DNA of 64,000 bases from Bacteroidota bacterium (GTDB lineage: Bacteria > Bacteroidota > Bacteroidia > Chitinophagales > Chitinophagaceae): contig CANGEP010000009.1 of NCBI GenBank assembly GCA_947452905.1, positions 33,935 to 97,934 on the forward strand, written 5' to 3'. The position numbers were made by a program, and so were the translations under genes. This document shows, piece by piece, positions 23,310 through 43,227 of this stretch (position 1 is the stretch's first letter; each line of letters begins with the position of its first letter). Below the pieces are notes generated by a model. It saw nothing but the letters and a program-made list of their open reading frames with translations, did no database searches and was not told the DNA's origin.

Positions 23310-23474
23310 TTAATTAGCTTTTTTTTGATTACCATATCTGAAATTTAATATCACGAGAATAATACTAATCAAAAAAAAGCCAATTAAACCAAAGTCGGTT
23401 TTACTTAATTTAGTAAAAAACACACCGAAAATAATAAGATAAATAATTGTCAAAAACTTTAGTGTGTTTTTCAT
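23310..23474 (-). CDS. Unannotated 54-aa two-TM small protein
   Basis: Read by hand on the minus strand: MKNTLKFLTIIYLIIFGVFFTKLSKTDFGLIGFFLISIILVILNFRYGNQKKAN*; starts 10 nt after the stop of 23485..24153; below the track's apparent length cutoff. Confidence 0.55.
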   Translation of the reverse strand: MKNTLKFLTIIYLIIFGVFFTKLSKTDFGLIGFFLISIILVILNFRYGNQKKAN

Positions 23475-23484
23475 ATAAGTGAAT

Positions 23485-24153
23485 TTAAGGTAATGGGCAA
23501 TAATTATCTATGCATGCAACCCCTGCTGCTGCTTCAATTGTTCCACATAGCAACACACAAACTGGTGTTCCAAGTCCAGCTGTTAAGCCAATACAATTGG
23601 CATGACACAAAATTCCAGTTGCAAGTGCTGCTGACGTGCATAATGAATATTTCCAACCACAATCATTAAGCATATTTATTTCTATTAATGAATTTGTTGC
23701 AATACGGTCAATAATTACAGACTTTAATAGTTGTGAATTTATTTCTTGAGATAAAACCTGATTACATGCTGTATCTATTTGCTGCATTGAAACATAATTA
23801 AATTTTCTATTTATTTGATTCCAATTATTACTATATTTTTTTGCATAATCTTTTAGAAAGCTTACATTTTCATTCCCTATAAACTCATCTACCAAATAGC
23901 TTGCATTACTTGAATTTAAGTCTTTGTCGTTTAAAGATTCAATTTTATTTTTTAATTCGACTAAAGTCATCCCTTTAGTGATAGCTAAATGCGAAATAAA
24001 TTTTAATAAATCTCTTTCTTGATTTACAACATTAATAAAATTTGTATCCTGTGAAAGTTTATTTGTTTTTATGGCCATTGGTTCAACAGAGGTCTTTGAA
24101 CAACTGCCTAAAATTGCACAAAATGCAAAAACACGAAAAAATTGATATTTCAT
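23485..24153 (-). CDS. Lipoprotein with C-terminal 8-Cys hydrophobic module
   Basis: Lipobox 'ILGSC'; C-terminus 'CGWKYSLCTSAALATGILCHANCIGLTAGLGTPVCVLLCGTIEAAAGVACIDNYCPLP'. Confidence 0.7.
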   Translation of the reverse strand: MKYQFFRVFAFCAILGSCSKTSVEPMAIKTNKLSQDTNFINVVNQERDLLKFISHLAITKGMTLVELKNKIESLNDKDLNSSNASYLVDEFIGNENVSFLKDYAKKYSNNWNQINRKFNYVSMQQIDTACNQVLSQEINSQLLKSVIIDRIATNSLIEINMLNDCGWKYSLCTSAALATGILCHANCIGLTAGLGTPVCVLLCGTIEAAAGVACIDNYCPLP

Positions 24154-24309
24154 AAAAATGGTTTTAATGAATAATGAAATTAACAGCCAGAAGAAACCAG
24201 ATTTATGTATTAATACTATTAGGAAATGTACTAAATAGTAATTTATCTATTGATTTTGAACCTTTTAAGCCATAATTGGTTATAAGAATAGGACTTTGAA
24301 GGAACATTA

Positions 24310-24341
24310 TTTGGTGAGAATCAAATAAGTATGTAATTTTG
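24310..24341 (+). promoter_or_regulatory. Bacteroidota-type promoter for the nitroreductase gene
   Basis: TTTG (24310-24313) - 20 nt - TAATTTTG (24334-24341), 36 nt before the ATG. Confidence 0.6.
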
Positions 24342-24377
24342 ATGTTCAAACATTAATTAAACTATAAAACAATAATT

Positions 24378-25080: not shown

Positions 25081-25437
25081 TTACACTTTTTTTAAAGCTT
25101 TACTTAATTTCCTTTTTTTATTTTGAGATTGTTTCTCATTTTTTTGTTTGATTCTTGCTAAGTCAAATTCATAAATCATTTGAGCTCTAGCCCAAATGAT
25201 AGCATCCATATTTAATGCAGGTCCTATTTTTAAAGCCATCTCAGCATTAATTCCTCTTTTTTTATTGATCACCTCATTTAGTTGTGAAGGAAGAATATTT
25301 GTTAATTCTGCAAAATATTTTTGTGTAAATCCCCTTTTTTTTAAAGCCTCTCTAAGCAGTTCTCCAGGATGAACTGCAACTGCGGGAACTAAATCATTAA
25401 TATTAATGCCCACTTCCAAATATTCACTTTTTTTCAT
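25081..25437 (-). CDS. higA: HigA-family antitoxin (HTH, XRE-type)
   Basis: 'VHPGELLREALKKRGFTQKYFAELTNILPSQLNEVINKKRGINAEMALKIGPALNMDAIIWARAQ' HigA/VapI motif; start moved to ATG at 25437. Confidence 0.88.
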   Translation of the reverse strand: MKKSEYLEVGININDLVPAVAVHPGELLREALKKRGFTQKYFAELTNILPSQLNEVINKKRGINAEMALKIGPALNMDAIIWARAQMIYEFDLARIKQKNEKQSQNKKRKLSKALKKV

Positions 25438-25447
25438 TGTAATTTTT

Positions 25448-25762
25448 TTAACTGTAATGGTTGCTAATTTCAATTATTTCTAAGGTATCTACAAAATCAA
25501 CTCTACTATAAACTTCTCTAAAAATTAAACGGTACTTTTTATTTAATCTAATAGAACTATACATAGCAAGGTTACCTTTTAATTTTTCATAATGAAAACC
25601 AGGATAAGTATTAATTTGACTTACTTTTTCAATTGACTTAATAAGCAATAGCACTATCTGATACTTTTTAATTAAAACCGGATTCGACCTAAATTGCTTA
25701 TTATTTATTCTTTTTCCATCATATAAATCAGCTAACATTTGATTCTTAAATACTATGTTCAC
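25448..25762 (-). CDS. higB: HigB/RelE-family toxin
   Basis: 'GNLAMYSSIRLNKKYRLIFREV' HigB-like C-terminus; GTG start at 25762 preceded by AAGGAAG preferred over the ATG at 25798, which lies in a palindrome. Confidence 0.8.
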   Translation of the reverse strand: MNIVFKNQMLADLYDGKRINNKQFRSNPVLIKKYQIVLLLIKSIEKVSQINTYPGFHYEKLKGNLAMYSSIRLNKKYRLIFREVYSRVDFVDTLEIIEISNHYS

Positions 25763-25783
25763 CTTCCTTATTTTATAAAGATA

Positions 25784-25819
25784 CTTCAATAAATTCACAA
25801 ATATGTGAATTTATTGAAG
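25784..25819. promoter_or_regulatory. Operator-like palindrome upstream of higBA
   Basis: CTTCAATAAATTCACA-AATA-TGTGAATTTATTGAAG: perfect 16-bp arms, 4-nt spacer. Confidence 0.7.
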
Positions 25820-27727: not shown

Positions 27728-29065
27728 CTAGGCTTTACCCAACATCCAAGATTTAAAAGCGTCAAAACTAGGCTGCATAGGAATAGATACTTTTTGCTTA
27801 TCTAATAAAAAAGCAACACTAGCTGGTATCTCTATTTTTTGCTCGATAGATTGCTCGACTACTTCGGGGAACTTTACGGGATGGGCAGTCTCTAAAATAA
27901 TAGCACGCGCAATATTGCCAGTACTGTTTGAATTTTCGGCCAAGTATTTTTCGGCCGCTAAAAAAGCAACAGCCCCGTGCGGATCTAATATATAGTTATG
28001 CGTTTTATATACACTATGAATGGTAGATGCTGTATGGGCATCATCAAAACTATAACTAGATAAGACTTTTGTTAAAGAAGCGAAATTGTTTTGCATGATT
28101 TCTAGGATACGTACAAAATTACTTGGATTACCTACATCCATGGCATTGGATACAGTAGCTACCGCTTTTCGAACTTCATATTTTTCACTCGCCAAATAAC
28201 GCGTTACCACATCATTGGCATTACATGCAGCTACAAAATGACCCAGGGGTAATCCACTGGCCTTAGCCATCATCCCTGCACAAATATTTCCGAAATTACC
28301 ACTAGGTACCACGATATGCATAGGTGTTGTATCGCCATAAAGTTTTATCCACTGCTGCCATGCAAAAAAATAATATAATTGCTGTGGCAACCATCTTGCA
28401 ACATTGATAGAATTTGCAGAAGTTAAATTATAAGATGCATTTAAATCGGCATCCATAAAAGCATCTTTTACCATCGCCTGACAATCGTCAAAACTTCCTT
28501 CCACTTCGAGTGCTGTTATATTTTGTCCGCAAGTAGTTAATTGCAATTCTTGAATAGGGCTCACTTTTCCTTTGGGGTATAAAATAATAACATCTACCCC
28601 CTGCACACCTAAAAACCCATTCGCTACGGCGCCGCCGGTGTCGCCACTAGTAGCCACTAACACAGTACTTGGTTTTTCGGCGCGCGCTTGTTTAGAAAAA
28701 TAACCCAAACATCTACTCATAAATCTGGCGCCCACATCTTTAAATGCTAAGGTAGGACCATGGAATAATTCGAGTGATAAAATAGTATCTGTAATGGGCA
28801 CTAAAGGAAAGTCAAAATGAATGGTCTCGGCACATATTTGTTGCAAACTTGCATCATCGATACATCCGCCCACATAAGGTTTCATGACTTCAAAAGCTAA
28901 ACTCGCTTTATCTAAAGTTTTAAAACGTTCTATTTGTTGGGCAGTAAATACCGGAATTTGCGTGGGAAAATACAATCCTTTATCGGGCGCTTGTCCAGTA
29001 ATGGCAGCAGTTTTAAAATCTACTTGAGGGGATTGTTTTGCTAAACTATAATATTGCATCTCCAT
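27728..29065 (-). CDS. thrC: Threonine synthase
   Basis: 'LFHGPTLAFKDVGARFMSR' PLP-lysine motif, 'VATSGDTGGAVANGF'. Confidence 0.96.
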   Translation of the reverse strand: MEMQYYSLAKQSPQVDFKTAAITGQAPDKGLYFPTQIPVFTAQQIERFKTLDKASLAFEVMKPYVGGCIDDASLQQICAETIHFDFPLVPITDTILSLELFHGPTLAFKDVGARFMSRCLGYFSKQARAEKPSTVLVATSGDTGGAVANGFLGVQGVDVIILYPKGKVSPIQELQLTTCGQNITALEVEGSFDDCQAMVKDAFMDADLNASYNLTSANSINVARWLPQQLYYFFAWQQWIKLYGDTTPMHIVVPSGNFGNICAGMMAKASGLPLGHFVAACNANDVVTRYLASEKYEVRKAVATVSNAMDVGNPSNFVRILEIMQNNFASLTKVLSSYSFDDAHTASTIHSVYKTHNYILDPHGAVAFLAAEKYLAENSNSTGNIARAIILETAHPVKFPEVVEQSIEQKIEIPASVAFLLDKQKVSIPMQPSFDAFKSWMLGKA

Positions 29066-29071
29066 TTTTTA

Positions 29072-30040
29072 TTAAGCTTCTATCTGAACACCTTGCTGGT
29101 TAATTGTTGTTACATAGGTATGATGCGCTAAGCCCAAACCCTCATATAAATTTTTCATTTCTTGCTCCACAGCTAAAGCAGTTTCTTTTTCTTTACTCAA
29201 CATAAATATAGAAGGGCCCGAACCAGATATACCCCCACCTAAAGCACCCGCATTTTTACAAGCTAATTTTAGGGCATCAAAACCTGGTATTAAAATAGAA
29301 CGAACAGGTTCAATAATAACATCTTCTAAAGATCGACCAATTAAATCGTAATCACTTTTCATAAGGCCCGCTACCAAACCTGCGATATTACCCCATTGCT
29401 TAATCGCATCTTTTAATTTTACATTTTGTTTTAAAATGCTTCTTGCATCCGACGTACGTACTTCAATTTGTGGATGCACAATGGTTACATATAAAGTGGG
29501 CGAAGGCAGTGCTATAATTTCGAGTGGAAAAATAGAACGCACTAAGGTGACGCCTCCAAAAATACAAGGCGCAATATTATCGGCATGCTTTACACCCGAA
29601 GCTACTTTTTCACCATTCATGGCAAAACGTACCAAATCGTCGTTACTAAAAATTTTACCTAATAAATAATTCGCTCCCACCACAGCACCCGCCGAACTCG
29701 CAGCGCTAGAACCCACACCCGAACCAGGTTTGATCAATTTATTAATTTTTACTTCAAAAGCAATTGAACTATTGGGATGACTCATTTCATATTCTTCTAT
29801 GAGTGCAATTAGGGCTGCGCCTGCTACATTTTTTTCGGGTTCGGTTGGCAAACCATAGGTATCCATATTTATAATAGTAATGGCCTCAACAGCAGTGCTA
29901 CCTGCAGAACGAGGCACCAAACGCATTTCCATTTCGTCGTATGGACTATTTACAGCAAAACCTAAAATATCAAAACCACATACCATATTGGCTACGGTAG
30001 CAGGGGCTTTAATTTTTATCCATTGATTAATAGGGATCAT
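29072..30040 (-). CDS. thrB: Homoserine kinase
   Basis: GHMP motif 'LIKPGSGVGSSAASSAGAVVGAN', 'GALGGGISGSGPSIFML'. Confidence 0.96.
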   Translation of the reverse strand: MIPINQWIKIKAPATVANMVCGFDILGFAVNSPYDEMEMRLVPRSAGSTAVEAITIINMDTYGLPTEPEKNVAGAALIALIEEYEMSHPNSSIAFEVKINKLIKPGSGVGSSAASSAGAVVGANYLLGKIFSNDDLVRFAMNGEKVASGVKHADNIAPCIFGGVTLVRSIFPLEIIALPSPTLYVTIVHPQIEVRTSDARSILKQNVKLKDAIKQWGNIAGLVAGLMKSDYDLIGRSLEDVIIEPVRSILIPGFDALKLACKNAGALGGGISGSGPSIFMLSKEKETALAVEQEMKNLYEGLGLAHHTYVTTINQQGVQIEA

Positions 30041-30049
30041 GTTTTTATT

Positions 30050-32527
30050 TTATACTCTTGCTGCTCTAATAATATCTGCAAATACACCCGAAGCTGTTAC
30101 GTCGGCACCTGCTCCTGCACCTTTAATCACCAATGGTAATTCAGGATAACGCATACTATAAAACAACACTAAATTATCCTTGCCATATAAATGATAAAAA
30201 TCGGAACTTGGCTGTATATGTTGTAAGCCCACTCTGGCGCTTGTTTTACCATCCTCCTCAATTTCATACTTGGCTACAAATTTTAATTTGCATCCCTTAG
30301 CAGCTGCTGCTTCAAATATTTTTTTGAAATGAGCTTCCTGTTTTTCCATCTCGGCGTAAAAATCATCAACCGATCCATCAAAACAACTAGCAGGTAAAAA
30401 TCCTTCATTCTCGATATCGGACATTTCTAATTTAGTACCCGCTTCACGAGCTAGTATCATAATTTTTCGCATTACATCGGTGCCTCCTAAATCCAAGCGT
30501 GGATCGGGTTCGGTATAACCTTCGTTTTGAGCTTGTCGAACCACTTGAGCAAATGATTTACCATCGGTACCGCCTGCATAATTATTAAATACAAAATTTA
30601 AAGTGCCAGATAAAACCGCTTCAATTTTATGAATACTATCGCCGCTACGAATTAAATCATTTAAAGTACCAATAATGGGTAAACTAGCACCTACATTTGT
30701 TTCAAATAAAAACGAAGCATTAAACTGACGTGCTAACGATTTTAATTTTGCATAATTCTCATAAGGGGAAGAACAAGCAATTTTATTACAAGCTACTACC
30801 GATACTGCTTTGCCAAGCAAACCTGCATACACATTGGCTACGGTATCATGTGCGGTTACATCAACAAAAATGCTATTACGTAAATTGTTGTCTACTATTT
30901 TTTGAACGTAATCGCTAATGCCTCCAGCAGGCGCAACTGCTAATTGCTCGCGCCAACTTGCTAGATCGATGCCATCTATATTAATTAATTGCTTTTTACT
31001 ATTGGCGATACCTACAATATTAATTTGTAAGCGTAAAGTTTTTTGTAAATAAGGAATTTGCTTTTTAATTTGTTCAATTAATTTTCCTCCTACATTACCT
31101 GCACCTGCCATATATACGTTTACTTGTTTGTAAGAAGTTTCAAAAAACTCTTCGTGTAAAACGTTAATCGCTTTTTTAACGTCTGCAGTAGCAATAACAG
31201 CCGTAATATTTTTTTCGGAGGATCCTTGAGCAATAGCGCGAACATTTATACCATTGCGTCCTAATACCCCAAACATTTTACCGCTTACCCCTGGGTGGTT
31301 TTTCATTTGTTCTCCCACCAAGGCTAAAATGGCAACGTCTTTTTCAACAATTAAAGGATCTACTTTTTGAGTAGCAATTTCCTGCGCAAACTCAGCATCC
31401 ACCGCTATCTTAGCCACATGCGCGTCCTGTGCATTTACACCTACACAAATAGAATGCTCCGATGAGGATTGCGTGATTAAAATAATATTGATTTGCTTTT
31501 TGGCTAAAGCGTCAAATAATCTTTTCGAAAAACCAGGAATACCTACCATTCCACTTCCTTCCAAACTAAGCAAACAAATATCTTTAATACTTGAAATACC
31601 TCTGATAAAATTAGTATCCCTAGGAGATTCGTTTTGAATAATTGTACCTGGATGATTGGCTTCGAAAGTATTTTTAATCCAAACAGGAATATTTTCCTGC
31701 ATTACTGGTTGAATGGTTGGAGGATAAATAACTTTAGCGCCAAAATGAGAAAGTTCCATTGCTTCTTGATAAGAAATTTGTGGAATCTCTTTGGCATTTT
31801 GAACCATACGAGGATCGGCTGTCATCATACCACTTACATCGGTCCATATTTCTAAAGCACTTGCTTTTAAAGCAGCAGCATAAATTGCTCCCGTATAATC
31901 GGAACCTCCTCTACCTAAGGTAGTGGTGTTATTGTCGGCATCTGAGGCAATAAAACCAGGTGCCATAAACACATCAAAGCCTTTATTTTCAGGTAAGGTA
32001 AAATAAGCTTGAATAGTTTTGGCAGTAAGTTCTTTATCTACCACTGCATTTAAAAAATTAGCATTGGTTTTAATAAGTAAACGAGAATCTACCCATTGTT
32101 GTTTAATTCCTTTGGAATCAAATGTAGCCGCTATTATTTTAGAAGATAAAATTTCACCATAGCTCACAATTTTATCTTGCATACGATTCGATAACTCTTT
32201 AAGCATAAACAAACCCTCGCAATTTGCTTCCAGCTCATTGATAATTTGTTTAACCATACTTAAAGTAGCCGATTGTGCTTGTATAGGAAGTAAAGCACGA
32301 ACCGCTTCGAGATGCTTTTGCTCGATGTTTTCGATAATGGTTTTATAGGCTTCATTACCCGTGGCCGCTGTTTGTGCCAACATTAATAATTGATCCGTTA
32401 CTCCACTCATCGCAGATACCACTACAATGGTAGGCTCTTTTTTAATCGTATCTGTAACTATTGCAATCACTTTCGAAATTGCATCGGCACTACCCACTGA
32501 ACTACCTCCAAATTTTAAAACCTGCAT
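30050..32527 (-). CDS. thrA: Bifunctional aspartokinase/homoserine dehydrogenase
   Basis: 'MQVLKFGGSSVGSADAI' plus C-terminal homoserine dehydrogenase 'GTLNFVFNNYAGGTDGKSFAQVVRQAQNEGYTEPDPRLDLGGTDVMRKI'. Confidence 0.97.
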   Translation of the reverse strand: MQVLKFGGSSVGSADAISKVIAIVTDTIKKEPTIVVVSAMSGVTDQLLMLAQTAATGNEAYKTIIENIEQKHLEAVRALLPIQAQSATLSMVKQIINELEANCEGLFMLKELSNRMQDKIVSYGEILSSKIIAATFDSKGIKQQWVDSRLLIKTNANFLNAVVDKELTAKTIQAYFTLPENKGFDVFMAPGFIASDADNNTTTLGRGGSDYTGAIYAAALKASALEIWTDVSGMMTADPRMVQNAKEIPQISYQEAMELSHFGAKVIYPPTIQPVMQENIPVWIKNTFEANHPGTIIQNESPRDTNFIRGISSIKDICLLSLEGSGMVGIPGFSKRLFDALAKKQINIILITQSSSEHSICVGVNAQDAHVAKIAVDAEFAQEIATQKVDPLIVEKDVAILALVGEQMKNHPGVSGKMFGVLGRNGINVRAIAQGSSEKNITAVIATADVKKAINVLHEEFFETSYKQVNVYMAGAGNVGGKLIEQIKKQIPYLQKTLRLQINIVGIANSKKQLINIDGIDLASWREQLAVAPAGGISDYVQKIVDNNLRNSIFVDVTAHDTVANVYAGLLGKAVSVVACNKIACSSPYENYAKLKSLARQFNASFLFETNVGASLPIIGTLNDLIRSGDSIHKIEAVLSGTLNFVFNNYAGGTDGKSFAQVVRQAQNEGYTEPDPRLDLGGTDVMRKIMILAREAGTKLEMSDIENEGFLPASCFDGSVDDFYAEMEKQEAHFKKIFEAAAAKGCKLKFVAKYEIEEDGKTSARVGLQHIQPSSDFYHLYGKDNLVLFYSMRYPELPLVIKGAGAGADVTASGVFADIIRAARV

Positions 32528-32549
32528 AACCCATTAATTTATGACGATA

Positions 32550-33824
32550 CTAGATAAGATATCCGTACATATTATCGTCTTTGTTTATTTCATTATAATT
32601 AATCTGATACTTTTTCATATTAACAATTAAAGTATCATAATCTTTTTTCGTTTTTAATTCTAAACCCACCAAAGCTGGACCCGCTTCTTTATTATGTTTT
32701 TGTATGTATTCGAATCTGGTGATATCATCACTAGGCCCCAAAACTTTGTTTACAAATTCTTTTAAAGCACCTGGTCTTTGTGCAAAGCGTATTAAGAAAT
32801 AATATTTAAGTCCTTCATAAATAAGAGATCTTTCTTTTATCTCTTGCATACGAGCTATATCATTATTGCTACCGCTAACAATACACACAATGGTCTTGTC
32901 TTTTATTTGATCGGCATAAGCATCTAATGCTGCAATACTCAATGCCCCTGCGGGTTCTACCACAATGGCTTCTTCGTTATACATTTGTAAAATAGTAGAA
33001 CATATTTTGCCCTCTGCTACTAAATGCATATCATCTAAGGCGTCTTTGCAAAAAGAAAAAGTTATATCCCCTACTCTTTTTACAGCAGCGCCATCAACAA
33101 ACTTGTCAATATTTTCTAGCTCCACAGGTGCACCCGATTTTAATGCCCAAAACATACTAGGTGCCCCTTCTGGTTCTAATCCAATAATTTTAGTACTAGG
33201 TGAATGCTGTTTAAAATACGTACCCACGCCAGCACTTAATCCACCGCCGCCAACCGGAATAAATAAATAATCGATGGGTCCTTGATCGAGTTTGTGATAG
33301 TCTTCGAGAATTTCTACACCTACTGTTGCTTGTCCCTCAATAATAGAAGGATGATCAAAAGGAGGAATAAAAGTCATACCATGCTCGGCTGTATAGGCCT
33401 TGGCAGCAATGGCGCAATCATCAAAAGTATCGCCTACTAAAATCACTTCTACAAAACTTTCTCCAAACATTTTAGTTTGGTTTACTTTTTGTTGAGGCGA
33501 AGGTATAGGCATAAATACAACCCCTTTAACGTTTAGTTTTTTACAACTATACGCAAAGCCTTGCGCATGATTACCCGCACTCGCACAAACCACCCCTTTC
33601 GATAATTGGTCGGCACTCAGTTGGCTCATCATATTATAAGCACCTCTTAATTTATAAGAACGTACAATTTGTAAGTCCTCTCTTTTTAAATAAACCCTGC
33701 ACTGATACTTTCGAGATAGGTTGGCATTAAACTGCAGCGGGGTATGGTTAACCACCGGCTTTAGTCTTGCATACGCACTCTCAATATCAAGTGCAGGCTT
33801 ATTTATTTTTGTAACATCACTCAT
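32550..33824 (-). CDS. ilvA: Threonine ammonia-lyase
   Basis: 'VYLKREDLQIVRSYKLRGAYNMMSQL', 'IPVGGGGLSAGVGTY'. Confidence 0.95.
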   Translation of the reverse strand: MSDVTKINKPALDIESAYARLKPVVNHTPLQFNANLSRKYQCRVYLKREDLQIVRSYKLRGAYNMMSQLSADQLSKGVVCASAGNHAQGFAYSCKKLNVKGVVFMPIPSPQQKVNQTKMFGESFVEVILVGDTFDDCAIAAKAYTAEHGMTFIPPFDHPSIIEGQATVGVEILEDYHKLDQGPIDYLFIPVGGGGLSAGVGTYFKQHSPSTKIIGLEPEGAPSMFWALKSGAPVELENIDKFVDGAAVKRVGDITFSFCKDALDDMHLVAEGKICSTILQMYNEEAIVVEPAGALSIAALDAYADQIKDKTIVCIVSGSNNDIARMQEIKERSLIYEGLKYYFLIRFAQRPGALKEFVNKVLGPSDDITRFEYIQKHNKEAGPALVGLELKTKKDYDTLIVNMKKYQINYNEINKDDNMYGYLI

Positions 33825-33833
33825 TCGAGTATA

Positions 33834-34889
33834 TTATTTTGCGGGTTGATTCTCTGGACGTAAACTTCTTACTGTACGACCAGCTTGCCACATTTCACTA
33901 TTATGTAATTCCGCTAACTCTACTTCTAATTTTTCACGGTAGTCGGCCTTGCTGTTTAAATCGATAGATCTTGCAGCTTCGGCACCTGTTGCTACACTAT
34001 TGTATAAGTCAGAGAATACAGGCAATGTAGCATCACGGAATTTTTTCCACCAATCTAAAGCACCTCTTTGCGCTGTAGTAGAACAGTTTGCGTACATCCA
34101 GTCCATACCATTTTCTGCTACTAAAGGCATTAATGATTGTGTTAACTCTTCTACTGTTTCATTGAAAGCTTCAGAAGGAGAGTGACCGTTGTTACGTAAC
34201 ACTTCATATTGGGCTGCAAATATACCTTGAATAGCGCCCATTAAAGTACCGCGCTCACCTGTTAAATCGGAATACACTTCTTTTTTGAAATCGGTCTCAA
34301 ATAAATAACCCGAACCTACTGCAATACCTAAGGCAATAACTCTGTCATGTGCTTTACCTGTAGCATCTTGGAAAATGGCGAAACTAGAGTTTAAGCCACG
34401 GCCTTGTAAAAACATTCTTCTTAAAGAAGTACCAGAACCTTTAGGCGCTACTAAAATAACATCCACATCGGCTGGAGGCACGATACCAGTTTGCTCTTTA
34501 TAAGTAATACCAAAACCATGAGAGAAATATAAAGCTTTACCAGGCGTTAAATGTTTTTTTACTGTTGGCCACATTGCGATTTGTGCAGCATCACTTAATA
34601 AATAACAAATAATAGTACCTTTTTCTAAAGCTTCTTCTATTTCAAATAAAGTTTGACCAGGTACAAAACCATCAGCTACTGCTTTATCCCAAGACTTTGA
34701 ATTTTTTCTTTGACCCACAATTACATTAACTCCATTTTCTTTTTGGTTTAATGCTTGACCAGGACCTTGAACGCCGTAACCAATAACAGCTACTACTTCG
34801 TTCTTTAAAACTTCCTGTGCTTTTGCTAATGGAAACTCTTCACGAGTAACCACGTTTTCTTCGGTACCTCCGAAATTTAACTTTGCCAT
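33834..34889 (-). CDS. ilvC: Ketol-acid reductoisomerase
   Basis: 'VAVIGYGVQGPGQALNQKENG', 'VAPKGSGTSLRR', 'SDLTGERGTLMGAIQGIF'. Confidence 0.95.
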   Translation of the reverse strand: MAKLNFGGTEENVVTREEFPLAKAQEVLKNEVVAVIGYGVQGPGQALNQKENGVNVIVGQRKNSKSWDKAVADGFVPGQTLFEIEEALEKGTIICYLLSDAAQIAMWPTVKKHLTPGKALYFSHGFGITYKEQTGIVPPADVDVILVAPKGSGTSLRRMFLQGRGLNSSFAIFQDATGKAHDRVIALGIAVGSGYLFETDFKKEVYSDLTGERGTLMGAIQGIFAAQYEVLRNNGHSPSEAFNETVEELTQSLMPLVAENGMDWMYANCSTTAQRGALDWWKKFRDATLPVFSDLYNSVATGAEAARSIDLNSKADYREKLEVELAELHNSEMWQAGRTVRSLRPENQPAK

Positions 34890-34951
34890 TTTACTTTGAT
34901 TTAATTGATTTTTATTTGTTTATTTTATTGATGCGTAGGGATACGCTTATT

Positions 34952-35554
34952 TTACATGGTAAATACAGTTTCTCTTTTTCCTAAATATTCATTTTCGATA
35001 ACTTCTTCGCCTGGCTCACGCTTTTCAAAATCTTTTAGTTTTTCATGAAAGCCCGCACTCTCTTTAATAATAGCCACTCTAGCGCTTCTTACAAATTCTA
35101 CTAATCCATAAGGCTCCAAGGCTTTCATTAACTTATTGGTTTCCTCTCTATGACCCGTAGTTTCAAAAACGATAAAATCTTTTCGAATAGCTACCGCACG
35201 TGCCCCAAACTCTCTAAGCAAACGCTCTACTTTTACTTTTTCGGTAATCTCTTCACTTAATACTTTATACAAAGCCAACTCCTGCCAAACAATTTCCTCA
35301 TTGGTATTAAAGTAAGCCTTTAATACCTCTACTTGTTTTTCAATTTGACGCACCACTTTTAAAACCACATCACGCGATTCCATTACTACAATGGTAAAAC
35401 GGTGAATACCTTGTACTTCGGAAGGCGATGTGTTTAAACTCTCTACATTAATTTTTCGACGAGAAAAAATAATGGCAATACGATTTAACAAACCCACTTG
35501 GTTTTCGGTGTACACCGTAATCGTGTATTCTTGTTTTTCGGTATTGTGATTCAT
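34952..35554 (-). CDS. ilvN: Acetolactate synthase small subunit
   Basis: ACT domain 'YTITVYTENQVGLLNRIAIIFSRRKINVESLNTSPSE'. Confidence 0.94.
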   Translation of the reverse strand: MNHNTEKQEYTITVYTENQVGLLNRIAIIFSRRKINVESLNTSPSEVQGIHRFTIVVMESRDVVLKVVRQIEKQVEVLKAYFNTNEEIVWQELALYKVLSEEITEKVKVERLLREFGARAVAIRKDFIVFETTGHREETNKLMKALEPYGLVEFVRSARVAIIKESAGFHEKLKDFEKREPGEEVIENEYLGKRETVFTM

Positions 35555-35560
35555 ATAAAA

Positions 35561-37258
35561 TTATTTAAGTCGTATTTCAGATACCGAACAACCCTGTGGC
35601 ACCATTGGAAATACATTGTTTTCTTTACCCACCATTACTTCTAATAAAAAAGATCCTTTATGTGATAACATTCTTTGTACCGCCGCTACTAAATCCTTAC
35701 GGTGTTCTACTTTCTCGCCTGCTACTCCATAAGATTTTGCCAACATAATATAGTCGGGACTTTGAATATCTACAAAAGAATATCTCTTATCATGAAATAA
35801 ATCCTGCCATTGACGAACCATGCCTAAAAACTGATTATTTAAAATAACAATTTTTACATCCACTCCAGTTTGCATGATAGTACCCAACTCTTGTAAAGTC
35901 ATTTGAAAACCACCATCTCCAATTACGGCTATCACGGTTCTATCTTGTGCTCCAAACTTAGCTCCAATAGCGGCTGGTAATCCAAAGCCCATGGTACCTA
36001 AGCCTCCCGAAGTAACATTACTACGAGATTCATTAAATTTTGCATAACGACAGGTAACCATTTGATGCTGGCCCACATCGGTAACCATAATTGCATTACC
36101 CTCAGTAATTTCATTAATATTTCGAATCACTTCGGCCATGGTCATTTCTTCAGAGCTAGGATACATTTCGGGTTGGATGCACTGCTCATATTCTTGTTTA
36201 GCATAATCTGCAAAAACAGCTAACCACTCGCTTCTGTCTTTTTGTTCAATACCTAAAGTAAGTAGGGGTAAGGTTTCTTTACAATCTCCCCAAACACCTA
36301 CAGTCGCTTTTACATTTTTATCAATCTCTGAAGGATCAATATCTAAATGAATAATTTTTGCTTGCTTCGCATATTTATCTAATCGGCCTGTAACACGATC
36401 ATCAAAACGCATACCCACTGCAATTAATACATCGCACTCGTTGGTTAATACATTAGGACCATAATTACCATGCATGCCAAGCATACCCACATTTTGTGGA
36501 TGATCGGTAGGAAGTGCACTTAAACCTAAAATGGTCCATGCAGCAGGCATTCCCGATTTTTCGATAAACTTTTTAAATTCTTTTTCGGCCTTTCCTAAAA
36601 TAACCCCCTGACCAAAAATCACTAAAGGCTTTTTAGCATTATTAATTAAACTCACCGCTTCGTCGATATATCCTTTTCGAATAACTGGTTTTGGACGGTA
36701 AGATCTGATATGTTGACAAGGTGTATACCCTTCGTAATTAAATTTTTGTAATTGTGCGTTTTTAGAAATATCAATTAACACTGGACCTGGACGACCACTT
36801 CTTGCTAAATAAAAAGCTTTGGCTAATACCGATGGAATTTCTTCGGCATCTGTAATTTGATAATTCCATTTTGTAACAGGCATGGTAATATTAATCACAT
36901 CTGTTTCCTGAAAAGCATCGGTTCCTAATAAATGAGCAAACACTTGTCCAGTAATACACACTAAAGGTGTACTATCAATCATTGCATCGGCAAGCCCTGT
37001 CACTAAATTGGTAGCCCCTGGACCACTGGTGGCAAATACTACACCTACTTTTCCAGAGCTACGCGCATAACCTTGCCCAGCATGGATTCCACCTTGCTCA
37101 TGACGCACTAATATATGCGAGAGTTTTTCTTTATAATCATACAAGGCATCATAAATAGGCATGATTGCACCCCCTGGATAACCAAAGATGGTACTCACTC
37201 CTTCGGCAATACATGCTTCTAATACTGCCTGTGATCCTGTTAATTGTTTTTGCTCCAT
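35561..37258 (-). CDS. ilvB: Acetolactate synthase large subunit
   Basis: 'IFGYPGGAIMPIYDALYD', ThDP motif 'IGDGGFQMTLQELGTIMQTGVDVKIVILNN'. Confidence 0.97.
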   Translation of the reverse strand: MEQKQLTGSQAVLEACIAEGVSTIFGYPGGAIMPIYDALYDYKEKLSHILVRHEQGGIHAGQGYARSSGKVGVVFATSGPGATNLVTGLADAMIDSTPLVCITGQVFAHLLGTDAFQETDVINITMPVTKWNYQITDAEEIPSVLAKAFYLARSGRPGPVLIDISKNAQLQKFNYEGYTPCQHIRSYRPKPVIRKGYIDEAVSLINNAKKPLVIFGQGVILGKAEKEFKKFIEKSGMPAAWTILGLSALPTDHPQNVGMLGMHGNYGPNVLTNECDVLIAVGMRFDDRVTGRLDKYAKQAKIIHLDIDPSEIDKNVKATVGVWGDCKETLPLLTLGIEQKDRSEWLAVFADYAKQEYEQCIQPEMYPSSEEMTMAEVIRNINEITEGNAIMVTDVGQHQMVTCRYAKFNESRSNVTSGGLGTMGFGLPAAIGAKFGAQDRTVIAVIGDGGFQMTLQELGTIMQTGVDVKIVILNNQFLGMVRQWQDLFHDKRYSFVDIQSPDYIMLAKSYGVAGEKVEHRKDLVAAVQRMLSHKGSFLLEVMVGKENNVFPMVPQGCSVSEIRLK

Positions 37259-37268
37259 AAATAATTTT

Positions 37269-38948
37269 TTAATCAGCGTCCGTTACACATCCTTCACTTG
37301 CGTCCTTTACCAACTTTGCATATTTATACAAAACACCATTACTTACTTTTAACTGAGGAGTAGGTTGCGCTGCTCTTCGTTTTGCAATGGTGGCTTCGTC
37401 TACTTTTAATGTCATGGTACGCTTAGGTACATTGAGTTCGATGATATCACCATCTTCTACCAATCCTATCAATCCTCCTTTATACGCTTCGGGTGTGATA
37501 TGTCCAATTACAAAACCATGTGTGCCTCCACTAAAACGACCATCGGTAATTAAGGCCACCGATTTACCCAATCCAGCACCAATAATGGCAGAGGTAGGTT
37601 TTAACATCTCTGGCATACCTGGTGCACCAACAGGTCCCACATTTTTTATAACCACCACGTCTCCTTCTTTTATTTTCTTGGAATTGATGCCTTCAATTAA
37701 TGCATGCTCACCATCAAATACTCTTGCTGGACCTTCGAACATATCACCTTCCTTACCCGAAATTTTAGCAACAGAACCTCCTGTAGCTAAATTGCCATAC
37801 ATAATTTGTAAATGGCCTGTAGCTTTTATTGGATTTTCTTTGGGAAGAATTATTTTTTGTTGATCAAAATTTAAATCGGGTGCAGCTGCTAAATTTTCGG
37901 CAATTGTTTTTCCTGTAACCGTTAAACAATCTCCATGCAACCAACCTTGTGCTAACATATATTTCATTACAGCTGGCACACCACCATATTGATGCAAGTC
38001 TTGCATTAAATATTTTCCAGAAGGTTTAAAATCGGCCAATACCGGAATCTTATCACTAATAGTTTGGAAATCGTCTTGTGTGATAGACACACCCACACTT
38101 TTTGCCATGGCAATCATATGTAATACCGCATTGGTGCTACCTCCTAAAACCATAATTACTGCAATTGCATTTTCGAAAGCCTTGCGTGTCATAATATCGC
38201 GAGGCTTAATATCTTTTTCTAATAATAGTCGAATAGCAGCACCCGCATCCTTACACTCTTGTTGTTTTTCGGCACTGAGTGCAGGGTTGGAAGAAGAATA
38301 AGGCAAACTCATACCTAAAGCTTCGATAGCAGAAGCCATGGTATTGGCAGTATACATACCACCACATGCACCTGCCCCCGGACAAGCATGTTGTACAATT
38401 CCTTTAAAATCGGTTTCGTCTAATTGCCCTGCAATTTTTTGACCTAGGGCTTCGAAAGCAGAAACAATATTTAAATCCTGTCCTTTATAATGACCAGGTG
38501 CAATCGTACCACCATATAACATTAAGGAAGGACGATTTAAACGACCCATCGCAATTAAAGAACCCGGCATATTTTTATCACAACCAGGAACCGTAATTAA
38601 AGCATCATAATATTGAGCACCACAAACTGTTTCGATACTATCTGCAATCACATCACGACTTACTAAAGAATAACGCATACCATCGGTACCATTACTCATA
38701 CCATCACTTACACCAATAGTATGAAAAGTAAGACCCACTAAATCATTTTCCCAAACACTTTTTTTAACCGTGTCGGCCAAGGCATTTAAATGCATATTAC
38801 AAGTATTGCCATCATAGCCCATACTCACTACACCCACTTGTGCTTTTTGTAAATCGGCATCGGTTAATCCTATCCCATAAAACATTGCCTGCGCAGCAGG
38901 TTGCGTAGGATCGAGGGTGATTGTTTTTGAATATTTATTTAATTCCAT
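37269..38948 (-). CDS. ilvD: Dihydroxy-acid dehydratase
   Basis: '[19 protein letters not shown]', '[15 protein letters not shown]'-type Cys motif, '[18 protein letters not shown]'. Confidence 0.97.
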
Positions 38949-38951
38949 AAT

Positions 38952-40067
38952 TTAAATGATAGTTGATTTATGTAAACGCTCATGAATAGGATGCATCTCG
39001 CCTTTGGCATGTCTCACAATAAATTCTGAAATCATATCGCCCATAGCAGTGGTGGTATAACTATTCATAGGATCAATATCTTTAGTCACAAAACCATTAT
39101 TTAAACACCAGCTTACGGCTTCTCTTACTAAACTCGCTTCTTGGGTTAAACCAAAATGATCTAATAACATTGCAGCCGATAAAATAGAACCCAATGGATT
39201 CGCAATATCTTTTCCCTTAGCTTGCGGATAAGAACCATGAATAGGTTCAAACAAGGCCACTGTGTTGCCTACGGAAGCAGAAGGTAATAATCCTAAAGAG
39301 CCTGCTAATACCGAAGCTTCGTCGCTAATGATATCGCCAAATAAATTTTCGGTTAACACAACATCAAACTGTGCTGGGTTTAAAATAATTTGCATAGCAG
39401 CATTATCTACAAATAAATAATCCACTGCAACATCACTATATTCTTTAGCAATAGCTTGCACTACTTTTCTCCACAAACGAGAGGTTTCTAAAACATTGGC
39501 TTTATCCACCAGCGTTAATTTTTTTCTTCTAATTTGTGCATGCTTAAAAGCCAAATGTGCAATGCGCTCAATTTCGTTTACCGAATAAGAACAATCGTCG
39601 CGAGCAATAGTACCATCCTCACTTAATGATTTGGCACCAAAATAAATACCTCCTGTTAATTCTCTATAAATAACAAAATCAACGTTCTCTAATAATTTTG
39701 GTTTTAAAGGAGTTAGATGTTGCAATGCCGCATAAGTAGTAACAGGGCGAATATTGGCAAACAATTGTAATTCCTTGCGCAATTTTAACAAGCCTTGCTC
39801 GGGTCTTACTTTAGCGCTAGGATCGTTATCATATTTAGGATCCCCAATGGCACCAAACAAAATAGCATCACTAGCTAAACAAATTTTAATGGTTTCATCC
39901 GGCAAAGGATTACCTGTTGCATCAATAGCGCAAGCGCCCATTAACGCATGCTCGTAGGTAAAAGTATGGTTAAAATGAGTGGCAATCGTATTTAATACTT
40001 TCATCGATTGCTCGGTTACTTCGGGTCCTATTCCATCTCCTAAGATGACAGCTATTTTCTTTTGCAT
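38952..40067 (-). CDS. leuB: 3-isopropylmalate dehydrogenase
   Basis: 'IAVILGDGIGPEVTEQSMKVL', 'DVVLTENLFGDIISDEASVLAGSLGLLPSAS'. Confidence 0.97.
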   Translation of the reverse strand: MQKKIAVILGDGIGPEVTEQSMKVLNTIATHFNHTFTYEHALMGACAIDATGNPLPDETIKICLASDAILFGAIGDPKYDNDPSAKVRPEQGLLKLRKELQLFANIRPVTTYAALQHLTPLKPKLLENVDFVIYRELTGGIYFGAKSLSEDGTIARDDCSYSVNEIERIAHLAFKHAQIRRKKLTLVDKANVLETSRLWRKVVQAIAKEYSDVAVDYLFVDNAAMQIILNPAQFDVVLTENLFGDIISDEASVLAGSLGLLPSASVGNTVALFEPIHGSYPQAKGKDIANPLGSILSAAMLLDHFGLTQEASLVREAVSWCLNNGFVTKDIDPMNSYTTTAMGDMISEFIVRHAKGEMHPIHERLHKSTII

Positions 40068-40079
40068 ACATTAATTTTA

Positions 40080-40664
40080 TTACTGATTGGCTTTTTCGTA
40101 AGCTTCAATTTCGGTTTTCATACTTAATAAATAATCGATATCATCATACCCATTTAACAAACAAGTTTTTTTATACGAGTTGATGTCGAATTTTTCGAAA
40201 GCGCCTGTAGCATCAATAGTAATAGTTTGCGCTTCTAAATCCACACTTAAAGTATCCTTAGCACCTTGTGCAAATATTTGTTGTAAAAATGCATCGCTCA
40301 CGGTTACAGGAAGTACGCCATTGTTTAATGCATTGTTTTTAAAAATGTCGGCGAAAAAACTAGATACTACTACTTTAAAACCATAATCCTGAATACTCCA
40401 AGCAGCATGTTCACGGGAAGAGCCACATCCAAAGTTTTTAGCAGCTACTAAAATCTCTCCACTATACTGTGATTGATTTAATACAAAATCGGCTTTGGGT
40501 TTTGTTTCGTCATCCTGCTCGTAACGCCAATCTCTAAACAAATTTTTACCAAAACCATCCTTAGTAGTTGCTTTTAAAAAACGTGCAGGAATAATTTGAT
40601 CCGTATCTACGTTTTCGATACGCAAGGGTATAAATCGACTGGTTATTTTTTGTAATGATTGCAT
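40080..40664 (-). CDS. leuD: 3-isopropylmalate dehydratase small subunit
   Basis: '[14 protein letters not shown]', '[23 protein letters not shown]'. Confidence 0.96.
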
Positions 40665-40668
40665 ACAA

Positions 40669-42072
40669 TTAATTTAAAATATCTCTGATATCTGTAATTT
40701 TTCCTGTTAACAATGCAGCGGCTGCTGTTAAGGGACTTGCTAATAATGTTCTGGCACCTGCCCCTTGACGTCCTTCAAAGTTTCGGTTGCTAGTACTAAT
40801 GCAATATTCGCCTGCAGGAATTTTATCCTCGTTCATGCCTAAGCAAGCACTACAACCTGCTTGTCTAATTTCAACACCTGCCTCTGCAAATATTTTATCT
40901 AAACCTTCGGCTTTAATTTGTTTAGCCACTTCTTGTGAACCAGGAACAATTAAAGTTTTAATGTTCGGGTCTTTTTGCTTGCCCTTAATAACACCTGCCA
41001 CCAATCTAAAATCTTCGATTCTTGAATTGGTGCAAGAGCCAATAAATACATTTTGTACTGGCATGCCTAATAAAGATTGACCCGCAGTTAAACCCATATA
41101 GGCTAAGGCTTTTTCATAGTTTTGTTTTTCGGTGGCATCGGTAAAACTTTCTACCGTAGGTAATTTGCCTGTAATGGATAAACCCATGCCCGGATTGGTA
41201 CCATAAGTAATCATGGGATCAATATCCTCCGCTTTAATATTTATCTCTACATCAAATTTTGCATCAGCATCGGTATATAACTCTTTCCACTGAGCAAGTT
41301 TTTTATCCCAGTCGGCGCCTTGTGGTGCAAATAATCTTCCTTTGATATAATCGAAAGTAGTTTGGTCGGGGGCAATCATACCACCTCTAGCACCCATCTC
41401 AATACTCATATTACAAATGGTCATACGCGCTTCCATACTTAAAGCACGAATCGCCGATCCTGCATATTCAACAAAATAACCGGTAGCACCACTCGCCGAA
41501 ATTTGTGCAATAATGTATAAGATAATATCTTTTGAAACCACCCCATTTTTTAAAGTTCCGTCAATATTAATGCGCATTACTTTGGGCTTGCTTTGCATAA
41601 TACATTGAGAAGCAAAAACCATTTCTACTTCGCTGGTACCAATACCAAAAGCAATAGAACCAAATGCACCATGTGTGGAAGTATGAGAGTCGCCACATAC
41701 AATGGTCATACCTGGTTGTGTGATACCCAACTCTGGCCCTATCACGTGCACGATACCTTGGTACTTATGTCCAAGACCATACAATTCAACATCATGCTTT
41801 TTACAATTCTCTATTAAAGTATCAACCTGAAATTTAGAGAGTGCATCTTTAATAGGAAGCTCTTGCTGCATCGTTGGTACATTATGATCCGCAGTAGCAA
41901 CAATTTGTTGGGGTCTAAAAATTTGGGCCCCTCTTTTTTCGATGCCGCTAAAAGCTTGTGGGCTGGTAACTTCATGAATAAAATGTTTATCGATATAAAC
42001 CACCGAAGGTCCATCCTCGATTTGCTTTACCACATGCTTATCCCAAATTTTTTCAAATAATGTTTTTCCCAT
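40669..42072 (-). CDS. leuC: 3-isopropylmalate dehydratase large subunit
   Basis: '[28 protein letters not shown]', '[15 protein letters not shown]', '[12 protein letters not shown]'. Confidence 0.97.
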
Positions 42073-42075
42073 AAT

Positions 42076-43227
42076 TTATTTTTTATAAGCAGTTGCCATT
42101 TCTTGTAAATCTGCTTCTAATACTTCTTTCTTTTTATCCGCTATCTCTAAAAACAAAGGATACAATTCGTCTATTTCGTTTCTGGTAAATTGATAGCCAA
42201 TTTTATGTAATCGATGTGCAAGTGCACTACGACCGCTGCGAGCAGTTAATACAATTTTACTTTCGTCAGCACCCACTTCAACAGGATTTATAATCTCATA
42301 GGTTTGTGCTTCTTTTAAAAATCCATCCTGATGAATTCCTGAGGAATGTGAAAAAGCGTTTGCACCCACAATGGCTTTATTAGGTTGTACCATCATTCGC
42401 ATAATGTCTGAAACCTCACGGCTAATGGGGTTTAAAAGCTTTGGATTGATGCTAGTGTAAAATCCTAAATCCTTATGTTGTTGTAAAATCATTACTACTT
42501 CTTCTAAAGCTGTATTTCCTGCACGCTCTCCTAATCCATTAATGGTACACTCAATTTGACGAGCACCCCCTATCACTCCAGCAATTGAATTAGCCGTAGC
42601 CAATCCTAAATCATTATGACAATGACAAGACAAAACTGCTTTATCAATATTGGGTACATGGTTAGTTAAGTAAGCCATTTTTTCTTGATACTGATGAGGC
42701 AAGCAATAACCAGTAGTATCTGGAATATTTAATGTAGTAGCGCCTGCTTTTACCACCGCTTCAATCACTCTTGCTAAATACTCATTATCGGTACGTCCTG
42801 CATCTTCGGCATAAAATTCAACATCATCGGTAAAGTTTCTGGCTAGGCTAACGGCTTTAACTGCACGCTCGATAATCTCTTCTCTGGTAGAATTAAATTT
42901 ATGTTTGATATGCAAATCCGAAGTACCAATACCAGTGTGAATTCTAAAACGCTTAGCAGGTTTTAAAGCAGCAGCAGCCACTTCGATATCATTAGGAACG
43001 GCACGAGACAATCCACATACCACCGTATTTTGTAAAGTTTTTGCAATCTGATTTACCGATTCAAAATCGCCAGGGCTAGAAACAGGGAAGCCCGCCTCTA
43101 AAATATCCACGCCTAAAGCTTCTAGTTTTACGGCTAGCTCTAGCTTTTCCTTGGTATTGAGTTTACAGCCCGGAACCTGTTCTCCGTCGCGTAAAGTGGT
43201 ATCAAAAATGAATACTTTTTGGCTCAT
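42076..43227 (-). CDS. leuA: 2-isopropylmalate synthase (short form)
   Basis: '[25 protein letters not shown]', '[18 protein letters not shown]'. Confidence 0.94.

Follow-up and report, generated by a model that had tools for sequence, protein, structure and literature searches.

The lipoprotein gene and its downstream neighbour

The window (the whole 64,000-nucleotide stretch of DNA analysed here) carries on its reverse strand a gene for a 222-aa lipoprotein with a cysteine-rich, hydrophobic end, followed at once by a gene for a small membrane protein. We consider the first as a candidate bacteriocin precursor and the second as a candidate immunity gene. The features of the locus are:

23485..24153, reverse strand: lipoprotein gene, 222 aa, candidate bacteriocin precursor (called from the open reading frame and homologs)
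24100..24153, reverse strand: signal peptide, residues 1-17, and lipobox, with lipidation at Cys18 (Cys18 and Lys20 are invariant in the alignment)
23728..24057, reverse strand: N-terminal helical domain, residues ~33-142, which varies more than the C-terminus and belongs to no known family
23497..23661, reverse strand: hydrophobic C-terminal module with eight cysteines, residues 165-219, a predicted two-helix hairpin with mirror-symmetric cysteines
23593..23661, reverse strand: part of helix 1 with Cys 165, 172, 183 and 187, on one helix face
23497..23559, reverse strand: part of helix 2 with Cys 199, 203, 214 and 219 (from Cys positions and the predicted helix)
23310..23474, reverse strand: gene for a 54-aa membrane protein with two hydrophobic segments and a basic tail, candidate immunity gene, 10 bp after the lipoprotein stop
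24154..24377, no strand: intergenic region between the pair and a divergent nitroreductase gene, presumed promoter site

The lipobox reads ILGSC, with Cys18 as the lipidation residue, and the final 58 residues of the lipoprotein (23488-23661, followed by the stop codon) hold eight cysteines in a Gly/Ala/Leu-rich context, just where the initial annotation had placed them. This C-terminal module has a GRAVY of +1.08 and is preceded by a variable linker (residues ~143-164). The surface export signal described for C. canimorsus is C-X-K-(D/E)2 (PMC5080379); the corresponding residues of the lipoprotein, CSKTSVE, do not fit this Capnocytophaga-type signal, so surface display is at most putative. 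The Bacteroidetes-type promoter motif TTTG/TAnnTTTG was not found upstream of the pair in 24154..24377.

Conservation, distribution and orphan small genes

Intact homologous loci number ten, eight in the window's genus (the window itself, G006, G007, G028, G050, G077, G087 and the MAG of L002, taken as a member of the genus from ~50% identity and common neighbours) and two in other genera of the family (G295 and G516). All eight cysteines, on whose conservation the initial annotation had made its proposal depend, are invariant in 10 of 10 sequences, and their spacings are identical across the loci, save that two carry four extra residues in the central loop. Identity to the window copy is 51-68% over the C-terminal module, against 33-49% for the whole proteins, and in the C-terminal part dN is 0.014 with a dS of 0.23 (L002/L004) and 0.055 vs 0.91 (L008/L009). 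Because homologs at nine other intact loci share the Cys pattern and dN lies far below dS, the reading frame is, as judged by sequence comparison, a real gene whose conserved Cys pattern goes beyond chance. The same C-terminus on an unrelated N-terminus, for which the initial annotation had proposed to look, was not found among the homologs; their N-terminal parts are divergent forms of one domain.

The lipoprotein is patchily distributed: of the ~91 genomes of the genus covered by the search, only 7 gave strong matches (E < 1e-20). Two more genomes of the genus, G016 and G065, carry a diverged six-Cys version (E about 3e-7 with a profile built without their sequences), and six or four cysteines are found in a more distant group from a different family of the order (L011, E 6e-7, and L149-L155). 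No convincing homolog appeared outside the order in a 297-genome sample of the phylum; weak matches were mostly to signal peptides or out of frame, and those inspected were discarded. Plasmid, phage and viral-contig collections gave no match to the lipoprotein query (P0001), so nothing indicates that known plasmids or phages carry it. Nor did sequence searches of Pfam, PADLOC and PDB give a match, and the lipoprotein resembled no known toxin in sequence or fold in the databases searched. The neighbourhood of the pair is syntenic within the genus, the pair lies at unrelated loci in the two other genera, and across the loci compared it is not consistently accompanied by an exporter, protease or modification gene. 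At the G295 copy (L105:9100-10701), the lipoprotein gene, whose predicted start may be mis-set there, is directly adjoined on its upstream side by a transposase-like gene (IS3 type, by eye); this neighbour suggests mobility. The six-Cys symmetric lipoproteins of L011, L149 and L150 adjoin a MacB-like permease gene, which may reflect genus-level synteny or a link to export.

The downstream gene accompanies the lipoprotein closely. In 10 of 10 intact loci, including the unrelated loci of the two other genera, a same-strand ORF of 51-62 aa begins 3-12 bp past the lipoprotein stop, and its product has two hydrophobic segments and a basic tail. Downstream of the diverged lipoprotein of G065 and G016 there is likewise a related small ORF, with a 91-aa membrane protein between, and G006 has a second small gene upstream of the lipoprotein gene. 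No small gene stands beside the distant homologs L011 and L149-L155.

A profile search with the small protein also revealed orphan copies in near relatives. G1063 has a small gene right after a phosphatase-like gene, where G087 has both lipoprotein and small gene, and G020 has one between glycosidase-like and nitroreductase genes, where G050 has both. The lipoprotein was not found elsewhere in either assembly (drafts 84% and 89% complete, respectively), and these cases may reflect either a loss or a gain in one of the lineages. The G1063 orphan differs from the G087 gene by four synonymous changes and one nonsynonymous change, indicating that coding constraint is kept. The small proteins of G020 and G050 are 57% identical, compared with 98% for the adjacent nitroreductase. 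At the G269 locus, in a third genus, an in-frame TAG interrupts the lipoprotein frame, which also has fewer cysteines, and the small frame is open. The initial annotation had likened the architecture to precursors with an immunity part fused at the N-terminus; given the adjacency at all ten loci and the orphans, the separate downstream gene takes its place as the immunity candidate. Beside the small gene of G038 lies a divergent 232-aa lipoprotein gene (L116:606-1304) whose product has a hydrophobic C-terminus and no detectable similarity, possibly a different toxin occupying this locus.

Toxicity is known among small hydrophobic proteins with basic tails, and on this general ground the roles might be reversed, with the small membrane protein as the toxic partner (a hydrophobic toxin-antitoxin peptide) and the lipoprotein counteracting it. 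We consider this highly improbable, since two relatives carry the small gene by itself, in one case under visible constraint, which is the opposite of what a toxin-antitoxin pair would lead one to expect. A more serious alternative is that the protein is an envelope lipoprotein whose disulfide-laddered hairpin is structural and non-toxic, and that it forms an envelope complex, or a stress or housekeeping pair, with the small membrane protein. Such a pair would be in keeping with the strong purifying selection acting on the C-terminal module, with the six- and four-Cys distant homologs lacking the small gene (some beside the MacB-like permease) and with the syntenic neighbourhood in the genus. 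However, the lipoprotein's presence is patchy, its repeated absence with the small partner kept would be odd for a complex, the small protein diverges fast and a transposase gene (by eye) sits directly beside the G295 copy, so that we rate this alternative as rather unlikely.

Cysteine symmetry and the predicted hairpin

The cysteines of the window protein (residues 165, 172, 183, 187, 199, 203, 214 and 219) include two CX3C pairs and follow the spacing C-x6-C-x10-C-x3-C-x11-C-x3-C-x10-C-x4-C. When they are paired from the outside in (165/219, 172/214, 183/203, 187/199), the residue numbers sum to 384, 386, 386 and 386, so the pattern is mirror-symmetric about residue 193. This symmetry, which the initial annotation had not described, is reached by eight randomly placed cysteines in 0.7-1.5% of cases and is therefore modest evidence alone. 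It is kept in the eight-Cys versions with a loop of 11 or 15 residues, in the six-Cys versions (pair sums 412/412/412 and 386/387/388) and in the four-Cys version (395/396). In the two genera with the longer loop, the four extra residues fall exactly within it (11 to 15) and the other Cys spacings are unchanged.

Residues 165, 172, 183 and 187 lie on one helix face (resultant 0.93, p 0.002), and residue 219 lies off the face of helix 2, at the helix end. For the module, AlphaFold with ten sequences predicted helices at residues 161-190 and 195-218 joined by a short turn (pLDDT 78, pTM 0.49); the model of the full-length lipoprotein was too poor for use (pLDDT 54.6). Foldseek with the module model returned no significant match. 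From the mirror-symmetric cysteines and the two modelled helices, we infer that the module would fold as a hairpin of helices, with as many as four disulfide rungs between them. Plant alpha-hairpinins, some of which are antimicrobial, are likewise built of two helices joined by disulfides between paired cysteines, for example Cys13-34 and Cys17-30 (PMC7191063). Those are short plant peptides with two rungs, whereas the module here is bacterial and hydrophobic with up to four predicted rungs, and the likeness is one of design only.

The same arrangement could instead serve to bind metal, with the cysteines and His184, the residue after Cys183, holding a soft metal such as Cu(I), in the manner of four-helix copper storage proteins. 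The CX3C pairs on predicted helices, the eight cysteines on facing helix sides and the near invariance of His184 are consistent with this, as is a weak, non-significant Foldseek match (TM 0.70, E 9.1) to 7vw1, a periplasmic protein with bound Cu(I). Yet no Pfam or NCBIfam metal-binding model matched, no evident copper genes are adjacent (by eye), His184 is replaced by Gln in L084 and the orphan small genes would go unexplained, which together make metal binding improbable.

A possible pair of bacteriocin and immunity protein

The initial annotation had likened the lipoprotein's end to halocin C8. Halocin C8-like proteins resemble it in carrying a C-terminal hydrophobic, Gly/Ala-rich and Cys-rich module in a longer secreted precursor; unlike it, they are archaeal, the three controls lack a lipobox, and the number and spacing of their cysteines differ (C-x2-C-x7-C-x3-C-x7-C and further cysteines, a pattern absent from the lipoprotein). 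The halocin C8-like domain model (TIGR04449, curated cut-off 24 bits) gave 46.7 bits with the haloarchaeal control L097 and no match at E<=10 in the lipoprotein or its own genome, and profile-profile comparison with the three precursors (hhalign, against fetched records annotated as halocin C8-like) returned a probability of 0.7%. Fulvocin C-related proteins are lipoproteins of ~215-230 aa from the same order with a Cys-rich C-terminal end, but that end is polar and its cysteines are differently spaced, and the genomic partners are others, with a DUF1573-like gene downstream in L064 and L065 (by eye). The corresponding model (NF033852, cut-off 35 bits) was passed by L063, L064 and L065, which are fulvocin-C-related lipoproteins in the genus and the order, and matched nothing in the lipoprotein or its own genome. 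In L065, genes resembling DUF1573 and an ABC transporter adjoin the fulvocin-C-related lipoprotein gene. Membership in the halocin C8 or fulvocin C family is thus refuted at the sensitivity of the models used. The similar broad layout, a longer N-terminal part with a short hydrophobic or Cys-rich end, and the fulvocin-related lipoproteins in the same genus leave a precursor of either family barely credible next to negative searches whose positive controls score, the negative halocin profile comparison and the differing cysteines.

What survives of the initial annotation is the plausibility of a bacteriocin precursor as such, given a peptide-like, hydrophobic eight-Cys end conserved above the rest of the protein; the kinship with halocin is lost. 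The evidence suggests an undescribed toxin-immunity pair rather than a relative of halocin C8, with the 54-aa downstream gene newly recognised as part of the unit. Because the module and the small protein are paired, presence is patchy and the small gene stands alone where the lipoprotein is missing, we lean slightly towards a two-gene bacteriocin-immunity unit. The lipoprotein would be lipidated at Cys18 and consist of a helical carrier domain and a hydrophobic C-terminal two-helix hairpin of ~55 residues, in which up to four disulfide rungs would form in the periplasm and hold the hairpin, presumably in the outside-in pairing. The hairpin would be the toxic part and would attack the envelope of related cells, with membrane insertion as the most likely mode of action, whether it stays anchored (at the cell or vesicle surface) or is set free by putative proteolysis at the linker (~143-164). 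The two-segment protein of ~54 aa, in the inner membrane, would protect the producer.

The nearest working precedent is BcpT of Phocaeicola vulgatus, a Bacteroidales SPII lipoprotein toxin of 499 aa whose C-terminal part, after cleavage, is probably the active one; the 57-aa immunity protein, BcpI, is encoded just downstream (PMC9308784). An SPII lipoprotein gene followed at once by a small immunity-type gene is also what all ten intact loci present here, and the pair may work like BcpT/BcpI, to which we liken it by layout rather than sequence. The two systems differ in that BcpT is far longer than our 222-aa protein and BcpI is a lipoprotein, not a two-segment membrane protein. Orphan immunity genes have also been documented in Bacteroidota (PMC12247911, PMC10470768).

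Several observations weigh against the bacteriocin-immunity reading. Among them are the absence of accompanying exporter, protease or modification genes, the mismatch with the Capnocytophaga-type export signal, the lack of resemblance to known toxins and the incompleteness of the G1063 and G020 drafts. Many bacteriocins diversify, whereas the C-terminal module evolves slowly. The main counter-evidence is the distant symmetric-Cys homologs with no adjacent small gene, so that the lipoprotein may have a function needing no immunity. More tentatively still, and with the balance somewhat against it, the pair could represent a new class of Gram-negative bacteriocin, with a lipid-anchored precursor, a disulfide-ladder hairpin that kills by membrane insertion and a dedicated two-segment membrane immunity protein, belonging to a wider superfamily of mirror-symmetric hairpins with eight, six or four cysteines across the order. 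To our knowledge, Bacteroidota from habitats other than the gut have yielded few peptide bacteriocins. If the bacteriocin-immunity reading is true, the natural orphan immunity-type genes in near relatives would allow competition between environmental Bacteroidota to be tested directly. The hairpin with its mirror-symmetric cysteines is simple in design and lends itself to pattern searches and to synthesis as a short peptide.

Elsewhere in the window, positions 25081-25798 hold what looks by eye like a HigBA-like toxin-antitoxin pair (HigB-like, 116 aa; XRE-like, 130 aa) between the nitroreductase and glycosidase-like genes. PIN-domain-like genes lie near the corresponding stretch in G050 and G077, so it looks like a hot spot for accessory genes. 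Beyond it, a long run (27728-43227) resembles genes for threonine and branched-chain amino-acid biosynthesis, and the genus as a whole keeps part of this run beside the pair.
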